Origin: an uncultured Solirubrobacterales bacterium
GTDB lineage: Bacteria; Actinomycetota; Thermoleophilia; Solirubrobacterales; 70-9
DNA: 34,610 nt
NCBI GenBank assembly: GCA_903933815.1
Contig: CAIZLN010000151.1
Coordinates: 1-34,610, forward strand
Direction of reading: 5' to 3'
A model generated the notes under the pieces. The model was given only the letters and a program-made list of their open reading frames with translations, had not been told where the DNA came from and made no database searches. Of this stretch, positions 29,980-34,477 are shown piece by piece. How positions within the stretch are numbered: the first letter of the stretch is position 1; the number at the start of each line of letters is the position of its first letter. The translations under genes and the position numbers were made by a program.

Positions 29980-31248
29980 ATGACTGCCGCGCCGGACGCA
30001 CGACCTCGATTGAACGACTACGCCCCGGCGCTGGTCGCTCTGGCCGCCGTGCTGTTCGCATTCCTGGTGGGGCAGCTGCTCGGCCCCGGGGATCCACCGG
30101 TCGATTTCGATCAGGCCGACAAGTTCACCTGGTTCGAGCAGGCGGGGCCGGGTGGAACTGAGGTCGCTGAGCGGTACCGCAGCCGGGTCCGCCTGATCGC
30201 CGCATTCGGGATGTTTTCGGGGATAGCGGTACTCGCATTTCTGGCCTTCTACAGGGGCCCACCCGTCAGGCACCTGCTGACGGTTGCCTCCCGGAATCCG
30301 TGGCGCGGTGCGGCTGGCGTGGGTGCGATGCTTGCCGTCGCTCTGGCCATCGCCGGGCTGCCTGCGTCGCTCCTGTCCTTTGACCTCGGCCGGGACTACG
30401 GTCTGGTGACGCAGGACCTCGGCGGATGGGCGGGCGACAGGCTGCTCTCCCTCGCATTCTCGATTCCGCTTACGGCGCTGTTCGCACTTGCCAGCTACGC
30501 AGCGTGGCGCCGGTTCAGGAAACGGTTCTGGGTCGCCGCCAGCGCCCTCGGGGTACTTTTCGCCTTCTTCTGGCTCTGGCTCTGGCCCGTGGCTGTGTCG
30601 CCCCTGTTCAACCGGTTTGAGCCGCTGCCGCCTGGCCCGGCGCGCGCCGAAGTCATGCGACTGGCCGGGCTGAGCGGCGTCGACGTGGGACAGGTCTACT
30701 CGGTTGACGCCAGTCGCAGATCGGTGGCACTCAATGCCTATGTGCATGGCATCGGTACCAGCAAGCGGGTCGTCATCTATGACAATGCCCTCCGCAACCT
30801 GTCCGGTGATGAGTTCACCACTCTGGTCGCCCATGAGCTGGCTCACGTCGAATCGAATGACATCTATCGCGGGCTGGCCTTCGCCATTTTGGTCATCCCG
30901 CTGGGAGCCCTGGCGATTCAGCTGGGGGCTGCTGCGATCCTGAGGAGAAACGGTGACTCCGAAAGCAGCCCTGCCGTCCTCCTGCCACTGGCGCTGGGAC
31001 TCTCGGTGATGATGATGCTGCTGGCCATTCCCGGCAACCATCTCTCCCGTCAGATCGAGATCAAGGCCGATTACAGAGCGATCGAGTTGACCGGAGACCC
31101 GGCCGCGATGGTCAGGCTGCAGCGGCGGATAGCCGAAAGCAACCTGAGCGACCCTGATCCGCCGGTGGTCTGGCAGGCCCTGTTTGCTACTCACCCTCCC
31201 GCACTCGACCGCATCGGGCTTGCCCTGGCGATGCAGGAGAAAGAGTGA
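29980..31248 (+). CDS. M48 family zinc metalloprotease, Ste24/CAAX-protease-like
   Basis: Integral membrane protease of 422 residues. Several hydrophobic segments cover residues about 14-35, 70-90, 105-130, 150-170 and 185-205. The zinc motif HELAH has His285, Glu286 and His289; the third ligand is Glu360 in EIKADYRA. Two more hydrophobic segments lie between them, as in Ste24. The C-terminal FATHPPALDRIGLA is also a family hallmark. Bacteria generally lack prenylated CAAX proteins, so a role in membrane protein quality control is more likely. It starts with TATCGT 8 nt upstream and no SD; the stop is one base before the rlmH TTG. Confidence 0.92.
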   Translation: MTAAPDARPRLNDYAPALVALAAVLFAFLVGQLLGPGDPPVDFDQADKFTWFEQAGPGGTEVAERYRSRVRLIAAFGMFSGIAVLAFLAFYRGPPVRHLLTVASRNPWRGAAGVGAMLAVALAIAGLPASLLSFDLGRDYGLVTQDLGGWAGDRLLSLAFSIPLTALFALASYAAWRRFRKRFWVAASALGVLFAFFWLWLWPVAVSPLFNRFEPLPPGPARAEVMRLAGLSGVDVGQVYSVDASRRSVALNAYVHGIGTSKRVVIYDNALRNLSGDEFTTLVAHELAHVESNDIYRGLAFAILVIPLGALAIQLGAAAILRRNGDSESSPAVLLPLALGLSVMMMLLAIPGNHLSRQIEIKADYRAIELTGDPAAMVRLQRRIAESNLSDPDPPVVWQALFATHPPALDRIGLALAMQEKE

Positions 31249-31249
31249 T

Positions 31250-31666
31250 TTGAAGCTCACGGTAATGGCCGTCGGGCGCATCCGCGCACCTTTTGACGCT
31301 GCTGAAGCGCATTACCTCAGGCTGCTCAAGGCCAGGCAGAAGGTTGAAGTAGTCGAGGTCAAAGATGACGAGGCGATGCTGCGCAGGGTGACCCCCAGGA
31401 GTCACCTGGTGGCCCTTGATCTGGGCGGAAAGACGATGGACTCGATCAGCTGGTCGAGCTGGCTGGAAAGCCGCCGGCTTGCTGCCCGGGATGTGTTCTT
31501 CCTCATCGGCGGCCCCGAAGGACTGGGCGAAGAGGTCCAGAGACGCAGCGATGAATCAGTGTCCCTCGGACCCCAGACGATGGCCCATCAGCTTGCCCGG
31601 ATAGTCCTGCTGGAGCAGATCTTCAGGGCCGGCAAGATCCTCGCGGGTGAGAAGTACCACCTGTAG
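31250..31666 (+). CDS. rlmH: 23S rRNA pseudouridine-1915 N3-methyltransferase RlmH
   Basis: SPOUT-fold methyltransferase acting on helix 69 of 23S rRNA. The 138-residue product has the knotted SAM-site sequence FFLIGGPEGLGEEV and the C-terminal signature HQLARIVLLEQIFRAGKILAGEKYH. It is a little shorter than the usual 155 or so residues. TTG 31250 is chosen because AGGAGA (31235-31240) is 9 nt upstream and the N-terminus KLTVMAVGRI fits the family; the frame is open upstream only as a shadow of the protease gene. It begins one base after the M48 stop, so the two are coupled. Confidence 0.93.
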   Translation: MKLTVMAVGRIRAPFDAAEAHYLRLLKARQKVEVVEVKDDEAMLRRVTPRSHLVALDLGGKTMDSISWSSWLESRRLAARDVFFLIGGPEGLGEEVQRRSDESVSLGPQTMAHQLARIVLLEQIFRAGKILAGEKYHL

Positions 31667-31687: not shown

Positions 31688-31693
31688 TAGGAT
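31688..31693 (+). promoter_or_regulatory. TANNNT box before argS
   Basis: TAGGAT lies exactly 7 nt before the GTG at 31701 and overlaps an in-frame ATG at 31692, which argues that GTG is the true start. Confidence 0.5.
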
Positions 31694-31700
31694 GGTCGTC

Positions 31701-33323
31701 GTGGCACGAACTGACCCTGTCTCAAGTCTGCTTGAAGTCGTGACTGAAGCCGCCCGCGAGCTCTCGGGCGACCGTTCGGTTCTGCCCGCGCTTGATCCAG
31801 CCCCTCGTCCGGAGTTGGGAGACTTCAGCTCGAATGCGGCGATGCTGATCGCCAAGCCTCTAGGGCGCGCACCACGCGAGGTCGCTGTCGAGCTCGCCGA
31901 CGCAGTGTCGGACCGGCTGGGCGAATCGCTGGAGCGGGTTGAAGTTGCCGGACCCGGGTTTCTCAATCTCTTCCTGGCGGACGACTGGTACCGGAAAGCG
32001 GTGGAGGAGCTTTCCGGCGACTCAGCACCGGTGCCTGCTGGCGGTGAGTCCGAGCGGATTCTGGTCGAGTTCGTCTCGGCAAACCCCACCGGACCGCTGA
32101 CTGCGGCATCCGGTCGCCACGCGGCTTATGGTGATGCGGTCGCAAGGCTGCTCGTCGCGACCGGCCATCAGGTCTCGACCGAGTACTACGTCAACGACGG
32201 AGGCAGCCAGGTCGAGAGTTTTGCTGCCTCGATCGCCGCCCGGATGAACGGGGATGAACCCCCCGAGAACGGTTATCGCGGCGACTACGTCAACCAGCTC
32301 GCCGACCGGGCCCGCGAAACCGGAATCGGACCGGAGGAACTTGAGCGTCTCGCGCTGGAAGGGGTGGCCTGGATGGTCGAGAGCATCCAGCAATCGCTCG
32401 ACCGTTTCGGCGTGCAGATGGACGATTTCTTCTCCGAGCGTTCGCTCTACCAGGACGGCCTCGTGGAAAAGGGGTTGGAACGTCTGCGAAACGCTGGCCA
32501 CACCTTCGAGGAAGGTGGTGCTCTCTGGCTCCGGACGACTGAGTTCGGCGATGACAAAGACCGTGTCCTGGTCCGCTCCGGTGGAGAACCGACCTACTTT
32601 GGCGCCGACGTGGCCTACCACGCTGACAAGGTCGAGCGTGGGCACGTCCGGCTGCTTGATGTGCTCGGCGCCGACCACCATGGCTACGTGGCGAGAATGG
32701 ACGCCGCCATCAAGTCACTCGGCAAGGAAGACGTCGCTTTCGAGGCTCGCATTCTGCAGATGATCCATCTGGTCGAAGGCGGCAAGCGGACCAAGATGTC
32801 CAAACGGGCCGGAGACATAGTCACCCTCGATGAACTCGTAGCCGACATCGGTGTCGACGCAGCCCGGTTTTTCCTTCTGCAGCGCAGCCACGACAGCACC
32901 ATGGATCTTGACCTCGACCTGGCTCGCTCCCAGTCCTCCGACAACCCGGTCTACTACGTCCAGTACGCCCACGCGCGCATTCAGAGCATTTTGCGAAAGG
33001 CGGCCGATCGTCCGGGCACTGGCAACGGAACGTCGCCAACCCTCCGGACACCGGTCGAGCCAGCCGAAAAGGCGTTGATCTCACTGTTGCTTGCCTTTCC
33101 AGCGGAGGTCCATCAGGCCGCCGGGCGCCGGGCGCCACACCGGATCTGCGCATACGCGACCGAGACCGCAGCGGCATTTCACGCCTTCTACCGGGACTGT
33201 CAGGTGGTGGATGCTCCCGGTGAGGGAACGGAGCAGGCCCGACTGGCACTCTGTGAGAGCACTGCCGCCACCCTGCGTTCGGCTCTCGGGCTACTCGGTA
33301 TCTCGGCGCCGGAGAGCATGTAG
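31701..33323 (+). CDS. argS: Arginyl-tRNA synthetase with altered HIGH motif
   Basis: Class I synthetase charging tRNA-Arg. The product of about 540 residues has the ArgRS N-terminal domain (PELGDFSSNAAMLIAKPLGR), the catalytic core, KMSK at residues 365-368 (TKMSKRAGDIVTL), and the helical anticodon domain with NPVYYVQYAHARI. Where other ArgRS read PLHVGHGRG, this one reads PLTAASGRH, so HIGH is replaced by TAAS at residues 134-137. The surrounding SANPTGPL and AAYGDAVARLL are normal and the gene is otherwise intact. GTG 31701 is preferred (TAGGAT 7 nt upstream); ATG 31692 adds three residues. It is the only synthetase in the window. Confidence 0.93.
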   Translation: MARTDPVSSLLEVVTEAARELSGDRSVLPALDPAPRPELGDFSSNAAMLIAKPLGRAPREVAVELADAVSDRLGESLERVEVAGPGFLNLFLADDWYRKAVEELSGDSAPVPAGGESERILVEFVSANPTGPLTAASGRHAAYGDAVARLLVATGHQVSTEYYVNDGGSQVESFAASIAARMNGDEPPENGYRGDYVNQLADRARETGIGPEELERLALEGVAWMVESIQQSLDRFGVQMDDFFSERSLYQDGLVEKGLERLRNAGHTFEEGGALWLRTTEFGDDKDRVLVRSGGEPTYFGADVAYHADKVERGHVRLLDVLGADHHGYVARMDAAIKSLGKEDVAFEARILQMIHLVEGGKRTKMSKRAGDIVTLDELVADIGVDAARFFLLQRSHDSTMDLDLDLARSQSSDNPVYYVQYAHARIQSILRKAADRPGTGNGTSPTLRTPVEPAEKALISLLLAFPAEVHQAAGRRAPHRICAYATETAAAFHAFYRDCQVVDAPGEGTEQARLALCESTAATLRSALGLLGISAPESM

Positions 33324-33330
33324 GCGGCTC

Positions 33331-33927
33331 CTAAAGGTCGAACTCGGCGAGGTCCCGGTCCAGTCGGGCAGAGTCGGAGCCACCCGGCTTTGGTGAAGAG
33401 CTGCCGCCGGTCTGATCACCCGGGTCATCGGGATCACGGGATCGCCGCCACCGGATTGCTGACCACAGCACACCGAGGGTCGCAAGGATCAAACCGATGA
33501 GCGGAACAAGGTAGACGAAGAAATTGATCTCGTCGTCGTCGGGTAGTCCGAGGACCTGGGGTCCGTACTCAAGCACCAGGGCGTCTTTGATCTCCTCGTT
33601 CGTTTTGCCCTCGCGAATCAGCCGGCGCATGAACACCCGCTGCCGCTCGGCCGCCGGTGCCCGTGACATCCCGAGCAGGGTGCCGCAGATCGGACACATG
33701 ACTTCGTCCTCAAGGTCGGGCAGGTTCGCCCGGATCTGAACCGGCATTGCTACGGAAGATCCCCCTGATCGCGAATCCGGCCCGGCCTGCGAGGCGCTCG
33801 TGGTGTCAGTTCGTGCTGGCGTCTCGGCCACGGCAGTGGTCGCAGATGCTCCGGCGAGTAGCGCCGTTGTCAGCACCAGCGCCGCCAGCCGGCCGTGAAT
33901 ACCTATCACCGGGCGGGCCTTGTTCAA
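33331..33927 (-). CDS. ccmH: Cytochrome c maturation protein CcmH
   Basis: CcmH handles reduction of apocytochrome c cysteines before heme attachment in System I maturation. From TTG 33927 the product is 198 residues: a signal peptide (RLAALVLTTALLAGASATTA), a linker, the redox pair Cys78 and Cys81 in MCPICGTLL, the family helix pattern RLIREGKTNEEIKDALVLEYGP, a transmembrane helix at about 135-158, and a polar tail. The TTG is chosen because GAGG lies 5 nt upstream and the start is 7 nt after the upstream gene stop; GTG 33909 is an alternative. The frame is open to 34191, but that part is a shadow of the thioredoxin gene. Confidence 0.87.
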   Translation of the reverse strand: MNKARPVIGIHGRLAALVLTTALLAGASATTAVAETPARTDTTSASQAGPDSRSGGSSVAMPVQIRANLPDLEDEVMCPICGTLLGMSRAPAAERQRVFMRRLIREGKTNEEIKDALVLEYGPQVLGLPDDDEINFFVYLVPLIGLILATLGVLWSAIRWRRSRDPDDPGDQTGGSSSPKPGGSDSARLDRDLAEFDL

Positions 33928-33934
33928 GATGGCC

Positions 33935-34477
33935 TCATCCCGAGCCGGGCCCCTCGGGTTTTCCGCGATTGAGCGCGGGCGCCGCGAACTCTTCGATCTC
34001 CTCAACGCTGCGGAATGGCCCGGGGAAGTGGGCGACCAGGTTGCCTTCCGGATCCACCAGGAAGGACTCGGGAACCCCGGTGGTCTCGAGATCGTCAGCG
34101 TATGCACCGCTCGCATCGCGAAGCTGCTGGTAGGTGATGTCGTACTCGCGCATGAAGGCGAGGGCGTCTTCTGTGAGGTCCCTCGTGTCAACTCCGAGCA
34201 CCGCTATCCGGGCGCGATTCTCCCACTCGAACCGGTCGAGGGCAGGGGACTCATCGCGACACGGCACACACCAGGAAGCCCAAACGTTGAGCAGCACCCA
34301 CTCGCCGCGGTAGTCGGCGAGTGAGCCCTCTTCCCCGGGGGGCAGGGTCGGAAGGGTGTTCGTCGGGACCGGCTCGCCGGTGGCAATCCCGCCGTCACCA
34401 GCGTTCACCAACCCCCAGGCCAGGAACCCGATCAGGGCGGCCACACCGATTGCGACAAGTGAAGTACGGAGGATCAA
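33935..34477 (-). CDS. TlpA/CcmG-like membrane-anchored thioredoxin
   Basis: Extracytoplasmic thiol-disulfide oxidoreductase of the TlpA/ResA/DsbE class. The 180-residue product has an N-terminal anchor helix at about 5-24 and a thioredoxin domain with WASWCVPC, where Cys70 and Cys73 form the redox pair, and the cis-proline region TTGVPESFLVDPEGN. Sitting directly upstream of ccmH on the same strand, it probably supplies reductant for cytochrome c maturation, as CcmG does. The TTG start has no clear SD; TACTCT lies 8 nt upstream. The other ccm genes are not in the window. Confidence 0.88.
   Translation of the reverse strand: MILRTSLVAIGVAALIGFLAWGLVNAGDGGIATGEPVPTNTLPTLPPGEEGSLADYRGEWVLLNVWASWCVPCRDESPALDRFEWENRARIAVLGVDTRDLTEDALAFMREYDITYQQLRDASGAYADDLETTGVPESFLVDPEGNLVAHFPGPFRSVEEIEEFAAPALNRGKPEGPGSG

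Follow-up and report, generated by a model that had tools for sequence, protein, structure and literature searches.

Textbooks recognize class I aminoacyl-tRNA synthetases by the HIGH tetrapeptide, which is credited with stabilization of the transition state. Isoleucyl-tRNA synthetases of the IleRS2 type with an altered G/AXHH signature are described as retaining activity and conferring hyper-resistance to mupirocin (PMC10485003). For the leucyl-tRNA synthetase LeuRS, an AVGA mutant of the urzyme reportedly outdoes the wild-type urzyme, which is credited to backbone interactions (PMC10450160). In solved complexes, HIGH is also reported to contact ligands little except where ATP is bound (PMC5919687). 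Here we describe argS, the gene for arginine--tRNA ligase (ArgRS), in a 34,610-nucleotide stretch of DNA from an uncultured Solirubrobacterales bacterium (contig CAIZLN010000151.1 of assembly GCA_903933815.1, positions 1 to 34,610 of the forward strand; hereafter the window), whose predicted product reads TAAS where HIGH is expected. From comparison of its relatives, the change is real, conserved, recurrent, and apparently functional. It is also a form of ArgRS of which we found no description among the matches listed in the literature searched, a search that left most subscription-journal papers outside.

TAAS in place of HIGH in an intact argS

The argS gene occupies positions 31692 to 33323 (+) and encodes 543 amino acids from an ATG at 31692, with a GTG at 31701, preceded by AGGATGG, as a possible alternative start. 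The open reading frame is stop-free up to 33323. Its product scores 396 bits against the argS profile TIGR00456, which passes the curated cut-off of 261.65, and the ArgRS Pfam domains PF03485 (N-terminal), PF00750 (catalytic), and PF05746 (DALR) are all above their gathering thresholds. Codons 32091 to 32126 (+) translate to GPLTAASGRHAA, followed by YGD. The motif context is NPTG-PL-TAAS-GRH, where relatives have HVGH-xR, and both translation and comparison of loci place TAAS at residues 137 to 140 (32100 to 32111, +). A first-pass annotation of the window had read the motif in this way and had noted that KMSK is present, and translation bears out both points. A pattern of the PS00178 type matches none of 63 aligned rows that lack HIGH and 58 of 61 that keep its first His.

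The class I catalytic fold is predicted for the enzyme all the same. Its AlphaFold model has a predicted local distance difference test score (pLDDT) of 94.5, and that of a HIGH-bearing sister (L190), whose secondary-structure elements match it closely, reaches 95.8. Helix alpha-1 starts one residue into the motif in both models, so that TAAS sits at the N terminus of a helix spanning residues 138 to 156. The best Foldseek matches of both models are ArgRS structures, headed by 3fnr, and for the window enzyme CysRS and MetRS come next.

The first-pass annotation stressed that both histidines of HIGH are missing. Neither is present, but the second is not a general feature of ArgRS: among the loci read, many Actinomycetota have HLGG or HVGG and many Bacillota have HMGN. 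The notable loss is therefore that of the first His together with the Gly, and we call an enzyme HIGH-less when the first His of the motif is absent and His1 when it is present. It had also been remarked that a glycine just before HIGH fits the rule by which ArgRS enzymes lacking KMSK carry a lysine there. Glycine and KMSK are indeed in place, but the fit is trivial and the remark uninformative, because aligned members of the subfamily, HIGH-bearing ones included, as a rule have Gly at this position.

Distribution of HIGH-less ArgRS

We found argS in 47 of 50 genomes of the family with TIGR00456, in 223 of 232 in a search of the order, and in 143 of 149 in a protein search at class level. Identical proteins (247 reduced to 234) and tblastn matches covering fewer than 380 query residues were excluded from the counts. 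The motif was read in 158 class genomes with a native-type argS; a set of genes that we take, from sequence context, to be of the E. coli type (L180 to L187) was omitted both from this count and from the trees. The first His is missing in 78 of the 158 and present in 80, figures that do not give a class frequency because the genomes were picked partly by similarity to the window. HIGH-less forms occur in 5 of the 10 families sampled. They comprise TAAS (22 genomes), TVAS (18), TAAG (14), TVAA (9), VAAS (4), NAAT (2), TVAH (2), TIGS (2), and five single forms, while the 80 His1 genomes have HVGH (31), HVGG (24), HIGH (12), and others. Both histidines and the glycine are all missing in 72 of the 78, the exceptions being TVAH (2), TIGS (2), TVGS (1), and TAGS (1). 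One locus (L167 in genome G165) reads HAAS; its argS match falls into two separate pieces, indicating a frameshift or an assembly fault, and it was counted as His1-bearing and left unmended.

Within the genus of the window, argS could be read in 17 genomes, and 17 of 17 have TAASGRH, with synonymous codon variants at all seven positions. Fixation of the residues amid such variation directly shows that this unusual motif is itself being maintained. The 16 further genomes also meet the concern that a rereading might restore HVGH. An artefact of sequencing or alignment is refuted by this agreement and by the absence of gaps over NPTG-x-x-motif-x-R when the HIGH-less loci compared are aligned, and we give it practically no credence.

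The suspicion that the change would be shared across a lineage of Thermoleophilia was well founded, and the change extends beyond the class. Two Bacillota/Firmicutes loci have VVVQ and NVVN at the HIGH position. A search of G348, a genome of this phylum, and its relatives covered 26 genomes and gave a match in 25. Of these, 23 had an ArgRS of the VVVQ/NVVN-like type, with no His at any of the four motif positions and no Gly, and the other two had a different, HIGH-bearing type. With G349 added, 24 of 24 genomes with this type of ArgRS are HIGH-less. When 119 genomes of the same phylum were sampled, 29 of the best loci were read, 7 being HIGH-less and 22 having HMGN or HVGH.

Evidence for a probable single working enzyme

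In the window genome (G000; 2.03 Mb in 168 contigs, 94.7% complete), the window argS is the only TIGR00456 match; no second, canonical argS of the kind that could have overturned the first-pass annotation was found in this search of the draft. Among 71 HIGH-less genomes tabulated for the order, 41 passed our limits of at least 90% completeness and at most 5% contamination, and 35 of these 41 had exactly one match (35 of 42 if G309, which has two argS genes, is added), including the single-contig genomes G093, G103, and G139. As for the six good genomes with more than one match, G111, G115, and G145 each gave one by protein search, the argS of G159 is split over two contigs, and G310 and G311 have a second argS with HVGH.

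Selection and conservation point the same way. The ratio of nonsynonymous to synonymous substitution rates (dN/dS) was 0.06 to 0.27 in 13 HIGH-less pairs and 0.05 to 0.27 in 13 pairs with His1 from the same subfamily (27 pairs in all, one of them an E. coli-type pair that belongs to neither set), and the argS genes of the relatives look to be under purifying selection. At least 97% identity within both the HIGH-less and the HIGH-bearing group was seen at 51 columns. The Lys of MSK is present in 63 of 63 HIGH-less and 58 of 61 His1 rows. All 124 rows have the Arg next to that Lys, and all have the first His of DHH. Conservation does not extend to the first Lys of KMSK, which is present in 14 of 63 HIGH-less and 22 of 61 HIGH-bearing rows and gives way to Q, R, S, A, or T in the other 49 and 39. 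As it is unconserved in both groups, many ArgRS of the class and of Bacillota likewise lack it.

In the relatives' loci with enough flank, rlmH adjoins argS beside HIGH-less and HIGH-bearing copies alike, and the two kinds are therefore orthologues in place. Taken together, the single match, fixation in the genus, conserved columns, dN/dS, and rlmH synteny make the gene look like a functional variant, as first proposed, and not a case of decay. It is very improbable that the TAAS protein is instead a non-catalytic paralogue whose canonical counterpart was missed in assembly. The window genome is a draft in 168 contigs and, as shown by one genus (g90) treated below, a canonical second ArgRS can coexist with a HIGH-less one; set against this are the single matches in the window genome and in most good genomes of the order, single-contig ones included, and the conservation of substrate residues and rlmH synteny in HIGH-less argS.

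Genome-wide loss of HIGH was also considered and is rejected. With PF00133 we found three further class I synthetases in the window genome, and they keep HMGH, HVGH, and HLGH, so the change is not genome-wide; from sequence context, we take these to be ValRS, LeuRS, and MetRS. A further PF00133 fragment at a contig end contains KMSKS only.

Recurrent change of the motif

Trees were built from rows thinned by identity, omitting L166 and L170. A careful tree of the class (61 rows), made without the motif columns, required the first His to change state 7 times. Well-supported branches force every one of these changes, and a single origin of the loss in the class, found in 0% of 200 bootstrap trees, is rejected. 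Quick trees gave 9 changes for 90 rows and 10 for 124 rows including Bacillota, whose HIGH-less rows make up one side of a well-supported branch. Each of these changes may be a loss or a regain. Across independent pairs, loss of the first His went along with loss of the Gly: of 8 pairs, an average of 6.3 showed the two together and 0 ran counter (median p of 0.031, range 0.016 to 0.063). The forms HAAS and NAAT are possible intermediates.

Search for compensating residues

Following the motif, GRH (32112 to 32120, +) consists in part of Arg142, conserved at 97% or more in both groups, and a lineage-specific His143. The first-pass annotation suggested that this histidine might compensate, and one may imagine that it takes over from HIGH much as the third His of GXHH IleRS2 does, since it lies three residues past the motif, which would put it roughly a turn farther on in helix alpha-1. 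It is associated with the HIGH-less state, being found in 66 of 78 HIGH-less class genomes and 8 of 80 His1 genomes. However, the position is N or G in the remaining 12 HIGH-less genomes of the class and A or S in all 23 Bacillota HIGH-less rows, and the histidine also occurs in HIGH-bearing enzymes (L190 and L119). Independent pairs (n = 8) gave averages of 4.0 with, 0.8 against, and 3.2 without a difference, which is non-significant (median p of 0.375), although too few pairs to decide. Judged by these alignments, the GRH histidine is no general substitute for HIGH, and compensation by it as a rule is unsupported. A takeover by His143 could still hold where GRH exists, the lineage of the window included, but we regard it as improbable.

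We also ranked every column of the window protein by its difference between HIGH-less and HIGH-bearing enzymes. No position outside the motif and the one three residues after it separated the groups. The next-ranked columns (222, 370, and 352 in the numbering of that ranking) show frequency differences but overlap between them, and a universal compensating residue elsewhere was rejected on these grounds.

Genomes with two argS genes

All seven genomes of genus g90 have a TAAS ArgRS, and five of them (G308 to G311 and G313; loci L180 to L184 and L326 to L331) also have an E. coli-type ArgRS with HVGH. In three other genomes (G205, G206, and G207), only an E. coli-type argS was found, G206 and G207 being 78 to 79% complete. 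The coexistence in g90 resembles that of IleRS1 and IleRS2 and therefore keeps in play the idea that a natural inhibitor acting at the adenylate site of ArgRS selected for loss of the motif, just as G/AXHH gives IleRS2 its mupirocin hyper-resistance. The repeated switching seen in the trees agrees with it, and IleRS2 is a direct precedent (PMC10485003). Most tabulated HIGH-less genomes, however, are single-copy. No such inhibitor is known to us, and a linked biosynthetic cluster was not searched for. We consider such selection unlikely, though less so than a takeover by His143. It would also explain why the motif changed and not how the enzyme works, and is compatible with the TAAS protein being the sole working ArgRS.

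A very divergent ArgRS-like gene with HVGH was seen in genus g78 of the same family (L171:5390-7096, +; 92.8 bits against TIGR00456, below the cut-off). It is flanked by an ABC-transporter ATPase gene and a chorismate-binding/glutamine-amidotransferase gene, and the locus may be a biosynthetic cluster that uses a synthetase relative.

How the enzyme may work without HIGH

We think it probable that the window argS encodes the sole housekeeping ArgRS of its organism, a compact, KMSK-bearing enzyme of the bacterial type that would aminoacylate tRNA(Arg) without the side chains of HIGH. The transition state leading to arginyl-adenylate (Arg-AMP) would be stabilized by the remaining elements of the site. 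These may include the backbone N terminus of helix alpha-1, where TAAS is seated, the Lys-Arg pair in the MSK-R loop, the DHH histidine, and Arg142, the conserved residue that follows the motif at a distance of two. Closure of the site induced by tRNA could assist, as ArgRS activates arginine only with tRNA bound (PMC7916415), a requirement that may lessen the dependence on HIGH. The HIGH histidines would have become dispensable in this subfamily, with the motif consequently switching repeatedly and each lineage fixing its own version. We favor such a redistribution over substitution because no separating column was found and the GRH histidine is not general.

Several points weigh against this proposal. 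The catalytic residues named are proposed from their conservation, which is just as strong in HIGH-bearing enzymes. Our literature search found no biochemistry on any HIGH-less ArgRS of these lineages. Any signature mutation is reported to cut the activity of full-length LeuRS severely (PMC10450160), and several class I enzymes are stated to suffer a loss of about 10^3-fold when the first His is mutated (PMC10485003). A second argS also keeps a small chance in the window genome, given its 168-contig draft and the two-argS genomes elsewhere. On balance, we lean slightly toward the broader view that HIGH is dispensable in KMSK-type ArgRS, and that natural, single-copy, "signature-free" class I synthetases arose repeatedly in at least two phyla, with adenylation relying on contacts made by the backbone, MSK-R, and DHH and on closure driven by tRNA.

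Other features of the locus

Preceding the motif, EFVSAN (E126 to N131; 32067 to 32084, +) forms a conserved strand-loop in which E126 and N131 are invariant in 89 rows; by spacing only, we equate N131 with residue 153 of yeast ArgRS. Y302 and D306 (32595 to 32609, +), both invariant in the same number of rows, are presumably involved in arginine binding, by analogy with the yeast enzyme. In D328-H329-H330 (DHH; 32673 to 32681, +), the Asp is found in 124 of 124 aligned ArgRS, as is the histidine next to it. The KMSK-R loop lies at 32793 to 32807 (+), with KMSK at 32793 to 32804. Directly upstream of argS is rlmH (31184 to 31666, +), encoding a SPOUT methyltransferase (PF02590, 117.8 bits). 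Downstream, on the opposite strand, are CcmH-like and thioredoxin-fold (AhpC/TSA, CcmG-like) genes at 33331 to 34477 (-).

Comparison with known synthetases

Motif-based annotation, or inhibitor design aimed at HIGH, would miss the HIGH-less ArgRS. As apparently essential, single-copy enzymes, they offer a natural test of the motif's role, in which the side-chain share of HIGH catalysis becomes directly testable. The TxGN signature of TrpRS begins with Thr like TAAS, but keeps the Gly and has Asn in fourth place. Compared with the bacterial KMSK-type ArgRS, of which the Campylobacter jejuni enzyme (3fnr) is the nearest solved structure, the window enzyme has the same domains, fold, NPTG strand, DHH, MSK-R, and DALR domain, and differs in having TAAS for HIGH, without the first His, the Gly, or the second His. 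The AVGA mutants of LeuRS and of the LeuAC urzyme also lack both HIGH histidines, removed in the laboratory, but keep the Gly, and the full-length mutant is reported to be severely impaired (PMC10450160), whereas a host of HIGH-less ArgRS apparently has no other enzyme for the task. The closest precedent is G/AXHH IleRS2, likewise a class I enzyme in which HIGH is altered in nature, a change that reportedly arose repeatedly and also reverted (PMC10485003). It keeps two histidines, at positions 3 and 4, the third-position one replacing the first, whereas TAAS has a histidine at neither; the window ArgRS has no His or Gly in its motif, and HIGH-less ArgRS is mostly the only copy.
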